Positions 22,396 through 23,829 of a DNA stretch of 33,359 nt are shown piece by piece; positions within the stretch are counted from its first letter, which is position 1, and every line of letters begins with the position of its first letter. Below the pieces are notes generated by a model. That model did not search any database and was not told the DNA's origin. It saw nothing but the letters and a program-made list of their open reading frames with translations. The translations under genes were made by a program, and so were the position numbers. The DNA is from Prevotellaceae bacterium. GTDB taxonomy: Bacteria > Bacteroidota > Bacteroidia > Bacteroidales > Bacteroidaceae. The stretch spans positions 1 to 33,359 of the forward strand of contig JAFLUW010000006.1 of NCBI GenBank assembly GCA_022508615.1. The letters run 5' to 3'.

Positions 22396-22469
22396 TAGCG
22401 CGAGACAGGCTTGAACTGTCGACCTTCGGATTATGAATCCGACGCTCTGACCAGCTGAGCTATCGCGCC
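22396..22469 (-). tRNA. tRNA-Met (anticodon CAU)
   Basis: The minus strand folds into a 74-nt cloverleaf. The acceptor is GGCGCGA/TCGCGCT with G1-U72 wobble, the D arm is GCTC...GAGC, the anticodon stem is CGGAT/ATCCG with loop TTCATAA (anticodon CAU), and the T arm is GACAG TTCAAGC CTGTC. The discriminator base is A and CCA is not encoded. Elongator Met is the likeliest identity. tRNA-Ile with lysidine-modified CAU remains possible. It is not an initiator, since the C1-A72 mismatch is absent. The promoter is at 22480-22511 and a terminator follows. Confidence 0.9.
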
Positions 22470-22511: not shown

Positions 22512-22665
22512 CAATCCGCCCGAAAAGTGGCCTTCCGCCCCGTGCTGGCCCCTCCGTCCGGCCTTTGTCTGCCGCCGTCTCTCCGCCTGCGGCGTCGTGT
22601 TCGTCTCGAAGCGCCTTTGCGCGGCCGCAGGCAGGCCTCTTTCCTGCTGCAAACTTACAGGGAGA

Positions 22666-22728
22666 AACTTACTCAGACTAAGTTTGAACTTACTCAGACT
22701 AATTTTCGACTAACTCAGCCTTTCTCGT
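22666..22728. repeat. 63-bp three-unit intergenic repeat, copy E (degenerate)
   Basis: Units at 22666-22686 and 22687-22707 are in the same (reverse) orientation. A third at 22708-22728 matches only over its first 13 nt (GACTAACTCAGCC). Without an oppositely oriented unit it cannot form the long hairpin. The upstream flank CAGGGAGAAACTTA is shared with copy G. This is the only copy in a divergent rather than a 3'-end setting. Confidence 0.8.
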
Positions 22729-22887: not shown

Positions 22888-22918
22888 TTGTTCGTAAAGC
22901 CGCTTTGTCGTATATTTG
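22888..22918 (+). promoter_or_regulatory. Promoter of the candidate structured RNA
   Basis: TTG (22888-22890), a 20-nt spacer and TATATTTG (22911-22918) form a near-perfect Bacteroidetes promoter. Predicted transcription starts about 22922, exactly at the first hairpin of the structured region. Confidence 0.75.
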
Positions 22919-22921
22919 CCT

Positions 22922-23217
22922 TGCCCGCCGTCCGCAGGACGACGGGCGGACATACGACGAAAGGGCGTTTAGCTGATTATCTCTTACAGGAATCTGGACA
23001 ATTCCACGTTGCGAAGATAACAGGCAGAAACGCCCGCATCTGCGTGATATAACAGGCCCGCCGCGGCATTCTTATATCATAAGGGTGTGGGCCTTTGCTT
23101 ATTATTTGTGACGGGCAGTCCAGAGCCTCTGTAAGGTAATAAGCCATCGTTCCCACGCCTTTTGCTGTTTTCTGAAGACAAGTCCGCCGGGAACGCGGAC
23201 AGAAAAAATCTGCGGGA
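22922..23217 (+). ncRNA. Candidate structured non-coding RNA or long structured leader
   Basis: A chain of helices can be read directly. They are 22923-22933/22937-22947 (11 bp, one mismatch); GGGCGTTT 22963-22970/AAACGCCC 23028-23035; inside it TTATCT 22977-22982/AGATAA 23015-23020 and GGAAT 22989-22993/ATTCC 23001-23005; TGATATAA 23045-23052/TTATATCA 23072-23079; AAGGGTGTGGG 23081-23091/CCCACGCCTT 23152-23161; GCTTATTA 23097-23104/TAATAAGC 23137-23144; and GTCCGC 23182-23187/GCGGAC 23195-23200. The loop AGGCCC (23054-23059) can pair with GGGCCT (23089-23094) as a pseudoknot. CGTTCCC (23149-23154) can alternatively pair with GGGAACG. It does not match tmRNA, RNase P RNA or SRP RNA as I know them. 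The 3' end is undefined, so it may be the leader of the LRR gene. Confidence 0.55.
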
Positions 23218-23280
23218 ATGAAACGAAATGAATTCCTCGGGGCGGCCTGCGGGCACTCCCGGCGCTGCAAGGGCGGCGCA

Positions 23281-23829
23281 ATGCATGGCGTGAAGGCTCC
23301 GGCGCGCTGGTCCGGACGACTTTGTCTGGCCGCCGCGCTGCTTTGTGCGGCGCTTCGGGTGCCGGCCGGCGATTTTTCGGACGGAGGGCTGGTGTTCCGC
23401 CCGGCAATGGCCGGCGGCCGGCCCGTGTGCAGCGTGGTGGCGCCCGTCGACCGCGGGGTCGGGAAAATTGTTGTGCCCGAAAGCGTGACGCACGGGACGC
23501 AAACCTACGCCGTGACGCATATCGGCGACAATGCTTTTGCCGGATGCAGCCGTCTCGGCGAGATAGTGCTCCCTTCGACGCTCGAACACATCGGCAGCCG
23601 GGCCTTTTCGCACTGTTACCGGCTCCGGGAGGTGCATGTGCCTCGCGGCGTGAGACACATCGGCCCGGGCGCTTTCATGCACTGCTACACGCTCGTCCGT
23701 GTCGTGCTGCCGCGGCGTGCGAAGCTGGGCCGCGGCGTGTTTTGCCAGTGTCTCGCGCTCGGCCGGGGGGCGATAAGGCGAGCTCGGAGGGCAGTCGCGC
23801 CGACCGACGCCGGAAAAAGCCGGCGATGA
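23281..23829 (+). CDS. Short BspA-type leucine-rich repeat protein
   Basis: From ATG 23281 this gives 182 residues. An upstream ATG at 23218 would add 21 residues. I prefer 23281 because MHGVKAPARWSGRLCLAAALLCAALRVPAG reads as a signal peptide. The mature part holds LRR_5 (BspA/TpLRR) repeats of about 23 residues: HIGDNAFAGCSRLGEIVLPSTLE, HIGSRAFSHCYRLREVHVPRGVR and HIGPGAFMHCYTLVRVVLPRRAK, then a fourth that decays after FCQCLALG into an Arg/Ala-rich tail. BspA proteins bind host matrix or other bacteria, usually with many more repeats and a sorting tail. This one is short and may be a remnant or a minimal form. It lies directly behind the candidate structured RNA. Confidence 0.7.
   Translation: MHGVKAPARWSGRLCLAAALLCAALRVPAGDFSDGGLVFRPAMAGGRPVCSVVAPVDRGVGKIVVPESVTHGTQTYAVTHIGDNAFAGCSRLGEIVLPSTLEHIGSRAFSHCYRLREVHVPRGVRHIGPGAFMHCYTLVRVVLPRRAKLGRGVFCQCLALGRGAIRRARRAVAPTDAGKSRR

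Follow-up and report, generated by a model that had tools for sequence, protein, structure and literature searches.

The window analysed here, a 33,359-nt stretch of DNA from a Prevotellaceae bacterium, contains a structured RNA in front of an LRR gene. The RNA is confirmed to be real; its most fitting place is in a class of its own among structured leader RNAs, marked by an unusual loop-to-loop pseudoknot. A sequence-only reading of the window had proposed that an RNA of several helices is transcribed here from a dedicated promoter. The core of that proposal is supported, and the RNA described there at a single locus is a member of a phylum-wide, multicopy leader class.

Overall structure of the element

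The element lies on the plus strand. Its predicted promoter is of the Bacteroidetes type and spans positions 22888–22918, with TTG at 22888–22890, 20 nt, and TATATTTG at 22911–22918. A predicted 5′ hairpin formed by GCCCGCCGTCC and GGACGACGGGC (22923–22947) lies at the presumed transcript start. Hairpin A (22963–23035) comprises P1, which pairs GGGCGTTT (22963–22970) with AAACGCCC (23028–23035), and P2 (22977–22982 with 23015–23020); P1 extends P2 in the window sequence. The interval between hairpins A and B contains a spacer hairpin (TGATATAA, 23045–23052, with TTATATCA, 23072–23079). This hairpin is variable among members, and the length of the spacer also differs. Hairpin B (23084–23159) is built from P4 (23084–23091 with 23152–23159) and P5 (GCTTATTA, 23097–23104, with TAATAAGC, 23137–23144). 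P4 is directly followed by a U-run, TTTT at 23160–23163, which forms an intrinsic-terminator-like end. The downstream gene (23218–23829, plus strand) encodes a BspA-type LRR_5 protein of 203 aa (Pfam LRR_5, E = 5.8e-17). The promoter and the three perfect 8-bp helices (P1, the spacer hairpin and P5) lie exactly where the sequence-only reading had placed them.

Compared with shuffled sequences, the plus strand folds with z = −6.0 over 22964–23160 and z = −5.3 over 22927–23217, whereas the minus strand of the latter region folds more weakly (z = −2.65). A conserved minus-strand protein can be dismissed as the explanation of the region, since anchor spacing differs by single nucleotides among homologues.

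Support for the putative promoter is comparative and comes from homologues rather than from window statistics. A scan with a 19-nt spacer returned 9 matches against 5.0 expected, which is not significant within the window alone, and it missed the real site because the real spacer is 20 nt. A TAnnTTTG box is found upstream of 89 of 134 homologues and in 6 of 134 reversed controls; it is absent, within the stretch examined, from about one third of members. The full arrangement TTG-N20-TAnnTTTG can also be recognised by eye in the homologues of genomes G046, G015 and G001. In addition, TCGTAT at 22908–22913, which overlaps the −7 box, can pair with ATACGA at 22953–22958. Homologues in G046, G015 and G001 (TCTAAA/TTTAGA) preserve this complementarity despite base changes; the promoter box itself is presumably untranscribed.

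Pseudoknot architecture and covariation

Hairpins A and B are joined by three long-range helices. K2 pairs CTTACAG (22983–22989) with CTGTAAG (23129–23135), K1 pairs TCTGGAC (22993–22999) with GTCCAGA (23118–23124), and K3 pairs about 23007–23015 with 23105–23113. From 5′ to 3′, the strands are ordered P2, K2, K1, K3, P2′, P4, P5, K3′, K1′, K2′, P5′, P4′, so that the two hairpins pair through nearly the whole of their ~30-nt loops. P2 abuts K2 (median gap 0) and P5 nearly abuts K3′ (median gap 1). On these sequence relations, P2, K2, P5 and K3 take the layout of a four-way junction, in which K1 bridges the opposite arms K2 and K3 by way of two conserved, asymmetric internal loops. The pairings themselves are demonstrated; we infer that the A–B junction closes in three dimensions.

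The compensatory changes by which the sequence-only reading had proposed to judge the RNA are abundant in homologues. In the seven-sequence seed alignment, 90.5% of cells are paired and 15 of 24 pairs are changed on both sides. RNAalifold recovers the same helices without guidance, K2 included. In an alignment of 64 matches, 95% of cells are paired, compared with at most 48% in slid controls, and double-changed cells number 487 versus 147 in shuffles. Both-side changes occur at all seven pairs of K2 (98% of cells paired), at six of the seven pairs of K1 (98.8%), and at all eight pairs of K3 (93%).

Because the 64-match alignment was fitted to the structure, an alignment-free test was added, in which duplex energies of an element's own strands were compared with those of strands borrowed from other elements (n = 134 non-redundant elements). 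Cognate K3 duplexes average −9.9 kcal/mol versus −4.1 for noncognate ones and are better in 93% of comparisons. The corresponding values are −9.5 versus −5.9 kcal/mol (86%) for P2 and −24.4 versus −15.6 kcal/mol (92%) for P4/P5. The K2 duplex gives −6.7 versus −0.3 kcal/mol, with the cognate better in 99%, a figure that is partly by construction because the collection required at least 5 of the 7 K2 pairs; the seed, K3, P2 and P4/P5 results are unaffected by this requirement.

Conservation of sequence is mostly confined to the internal loops that flank K1 (AA/RCCU and AAUU/GGYA), and part of it was imposed by the collecting pattern; the pattern that gathered many homologues also fixed part of the K1 motif. 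The fitted K3 and P2 helices, which are greedy stem fits, overlap by a few nucleotides in many members, so an alternation between the two is conceivable.

Alternative pairings

A pseudoknot had been anticipated from the sequence, and one does exist and is conserved, namely the K2/K1/K3 pairing between hairpins A and B. The specific pairing put forward, AGGCCC (23054–23059) with GGGCCT (23089–23094), is not conserved: it lies in the spacer, which in relatives is absent or different and in most of them shorter, and the closest one, G046, lacks the pairing. The minimum-energy fold, a single long rod, was likewise rejected, as just its inner part K2-K1-K3 covaries and the outer rod shows no signal (cognate better in 53%). 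A local hairpin P3 (GGAAT/ATTCC) has no overall cognate signal (55%).

An optional helix X pairs CGTTCCC (23148–23154) with GGGAACG (23189–23195). It joins the strand before P4′ to a site 3′ of the U-run and overlaps the 3′ strand of P4. This alternative pairing, also suggested earlier, is present and enriched, and is limited to a subset: at least seven contiguous pairs occur in 40% of 111 members, versus 17.6% for noncognate strands and 14.7% for a control region 75–150 nt downstream. Most members lack it. Once transcription has passed the U-run, helix X could exert an effect close to the start codon. The complementarity of GTCCGC (23182–23187) with GCGGAC (23195–23200), pointed out in the same reading, is present in the window. 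The 21 bases at 23195–23215 (GCGGACAGAAAAAATCTGCGG), just upstream of the LRR gene, have an exact match at an unrelated site in G033 (L005, 371–391); the stretch is a small dispersed repeat.

Homologues and distribution

When 101 related genomes were searched at the DNA level, G046, G015, G060 and G001 proved to carry clear relatives. Read in the sense direction, these keep AATCTGGA, TCCAG[AG]GCCTC and the terminator-like end CACRC-TTTT. A search with the motif GGNANTCCAGRGCCTC added two further relatives, in G106 and G076; its other matches lie, by eye, mostly in open coding sequence. Two covariance models were built, R1 from the seed of seven sequences and R2 from the 64 matches. R1 matches 36 of 301 genomes of the family and 37 of 344 of the order, and R2 matches 50 of 396 genomes of the phylum; these broad-search counts are undercounts, since just 8–14 candidates were scored per genome. 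With more candidates scored per genome, R2 matches 26 of the 39 genomes examined within the window's genus, where a single genome can hold as many as nine copies.

A DNA pattern retrieved at least 116 stretches in named genomes, many of them MAGs. The matches listed include records of Prevotella, Xylanibacter, Bacteroides, Alistipes, Dysgonomonas, Pedobacter, Fibrobacter and Kiritimatiellae; some outlying taxon names could reflect MAG binning errors. The same pattern has 17 matches in viral contigs. Among IMG/VR sequences, L207–L223 form a distinct phage-associated subfamily with a 5′ hairpin GAAGC-TGACGC-GCTTC, ahead of an unrecognised protein of ~450 aa. Pfam gave no match for two of these proteins, and a phage-borne copy compared by blastn with named phages had no match either.

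Several copies occur per genome, each before different genes. The window's own genome holds at least one further clear copy (C108:212–349, L236), which has K1 altered on both strands to TCGGCAA/TTGCCGA and precedes a gene for a 495-aa protein with a signal-peptide-like start. It is strongly diverged from the window copy. A further weak copy lies on contig C30. The 15-mer ACTTANTCAGACTAA is a very abundant interspersed repeat of this 1.87-Mb genome, with 306 occurrences at up to one mismatch and 0 in a reversed control, often in inverted or tandem pairs; it is present at 22660–22720 of the window and also upstream of the second RNA copy (L236, 1–55). In one pair of genomes (L066 and L072), two RNAs stand in tandem ~205 nt apart, followed by a single gene. 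The G015 copy (L003, about 1597–1793) carries a ~200-nt insert in its spacer, bordered by inverted repeats AGAAACTGTTTTGAATTT and probably a MITE.

Genomic context

In 115 of 134 homologues, four or more consecutive T come after hairpin B at the same place; about 14% lack such a run. Of the nearest downstream genes, 105 share the strand of the RNA and 10 lie on the opposite one, compared with 75:34 for upstream genes (binomial p = 1.3e-8 relative to the upstream rate). Same-strand genes also form the majority downstream in a further set, drawn from the window's genus. The distance from the U-run to the start codon has a median of 69 nt, and a TAnnTTTG box occurs in 4 of 90 such gaps. With so short a gap, and a box in so few of them, transcription of the gene from the promoter upstream of the RNA is the simplest reading. 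Several features expected of an attenuation leader are present: an upstream promoter, a same-strand gene in reach, and a hairpin with U-run between RNA and gene. In leaders L031, L035–L037, L099, L137 and L236, the interval between promoter and hairpin A contains CCTATGNNNTAA, a two-codon reading frame.

The downstream genes are diverse. Exported-looking proteins are encoded by 60 of 125 downstream and 8 of 91 upstream genes under a crude signal-peptide rule, the gene calls being crude heuristics as well. By Pfam, BspA-type LRR proteins are the commonest (LRR_5, 11 of 104), followed by many other kinds that occur a few times each, DNA methylases and PLD helicases being examples; restriction-modification genes are among them. 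This diversity argues against a pathway-specific riboswitch. A role in defence only was also rejected, as no PADLOC model among those shown matched more than 3 of the 104 downstream proteins.

Comparison with known RNAs

The proposal that the RNA belongs to no known family stands. The RNA does not reach the gathering score of any Rfam 15 family; the sole Rfam match in the window is a tRNA at 22396–22469. At 39 homologous or neighbouring loci, Rfam likewise matches only the unrelated neighbours DUF805b and rteR. No description was found in Rfam 15 or in the literature searched, which included PMC2864571, PMC7366714, PMC8632094 and PMC11109978; a 2017 survey of 224 candidate RNAs lies outside this coverage, so the class may have been mentioned earlier without an Rfam entry.

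6S RNA shares with the present RNA a long rod-like minimum-energy fold and occurrence in Bacteroidota. However, no 6S family matches these loci. In 61 relatives searched, RF00013 had no match and 6S-Flavo (RF01685) had two weak matches, in distant genomes at other loci; Bacteroidales-1 (RF01693), labelled 'suggested 6S', had none by cmscan of the window and homologous loci. Moreover, 6S RNA acts in trans, whereas the present class is multicopy and tied to downstream genes.

Two riboswitch systems offer further parallels. The HMP-PP (thiS motif) riboswitch is a terminator-embedded aptamer before thiamin genes (PMC6478431). As in the window class, regulatory fold and terminator hairpin overlap in one compact structured leader. 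The window class differs in having no Rfam match, in preceding unrelated accessory genes, and in pairing two whole loops. A riboswitch candidate from a 50-genome survey, linked to a folate gene in a text that names no Bacteroidota, has a terminator loop that may form a pseudoknot with the preceding hairpin (PMC11109978). It resembles the window class in this potential for pairing between the terminator hairpin loop and an upstream hairpin, but the window class has long loops, three covarying loop–loop helices and a phylum-wide range.

Proposed mechanism and alternatives

Judged from sequence and its comparison, the RNA probably represents a new structural class of cis-acting leader that works by transcription attenuation. 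Synthesis of the RNA would start just after the TATATTTG box and yield the 5′ hairpin, hairpin A (P1/P2), the variable spacer, and hairpin B (P5/P4 with the U-run). The ~30-nt loop of A pairs almost entirely with that of B through K2-K1-K3. Hairpin B with its U-run may bring about intrinsic termination before the gene is reached, and formation of the A–B pseudoknot, or its co-transcriptional route, may choose between stop and read-through. The K helices sit in the loop of hairpin B and mostly share no nucleotides with P4/P5; since they do not compete directly with these helices, the logic of the switch cannot be read directly from the sequence. The conserved internal loops flanking K1 could be the site of action of a ligand, an ion, a protein or RNA polymerase. 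The signal is expected to be a general cellular cue rather than the metabolite of one pathway, because the controlled genes are diverse accessory genes, often exported.

A stand-alone small RNA gene, with a transcript that ends at the U-run and acts in trans, would also have its own promoter box and U-run, and multicopy occurrence suits a paralogous sRNA family; the neighbouring gene would then be incidental or a target. Such a gene needs no particular neighbour, yet the downstream genes are overwhelmingly on the same strand, close, and mostly without a promoter box in the gap, and we regard this reading as unlikely. Another possibility retains a leader whose main effect is on translation or on the stability of the mRNA, with a weak or structural U-run and with helix X re-pairing the 3′ strand of P4 near the start codon. 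Helix X is enriched in a subset that includes the window, and in some members the U-run ends just 2–40 nt ahead of the predicted start codon. Set against this are the majority of members, which lack helix X, and the U-run after a GC-rich hairpin in 115 of 134 homologues, which is the standard design of a terminator; this reading is likewise unlikely.

The class also recalls DNA-level elements such as MITEs or folded recombination sites, in which covariation would merely reflect matching ends. Integron attC sites keep their structure despite sequence variation and adjoin diverse accessory genes in one orientation. The window class is similarly conserved in structure, variable in sequence and multicopy beside diverse accessory genes in one orientation, and hairpin A resembles the reverse complement of B in layout. 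In contrast to attC sites, it has promoter and terminator features that argue for RNA, and it was not seen in cassette arrays. The promoter box and U-run are conserved in fixed places, a strong strand bias is confined to the downstream gene, and the two copies compared in the window's genome are too diverged to be recent transpositions. A DNA-level element is therefore very unlikely.

Significance

Bacteroidota are dominant in the gut, and to our knowledge few RNA switches have been described in them. The present class is widespread in the window's genus and phylum-wide, in gut and environmental Bacteroidota alike, yet has no Rfam entry. It lies nearly always directly upstream of an accessory gene, a different one each time. 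Some Fibrobacter and Kiritimatiellae MAGs, outside Bacteroidota, also carry relatives. The loop-in-loop fold, if closed, would be an unusual RNA architecture. Tentatively, the members may be phylum-wide switch RNAs that Bacteroidota use as an all-purpose leader before genes of accessory, exported and defence functions; whole-loop pairing into a closed, ring-like junction would control an embedded terminator on a general signal. If such switching is true, genes for surface proteins, BspA-type repeats and restriction-modification would answer to one signal as a common regulon.
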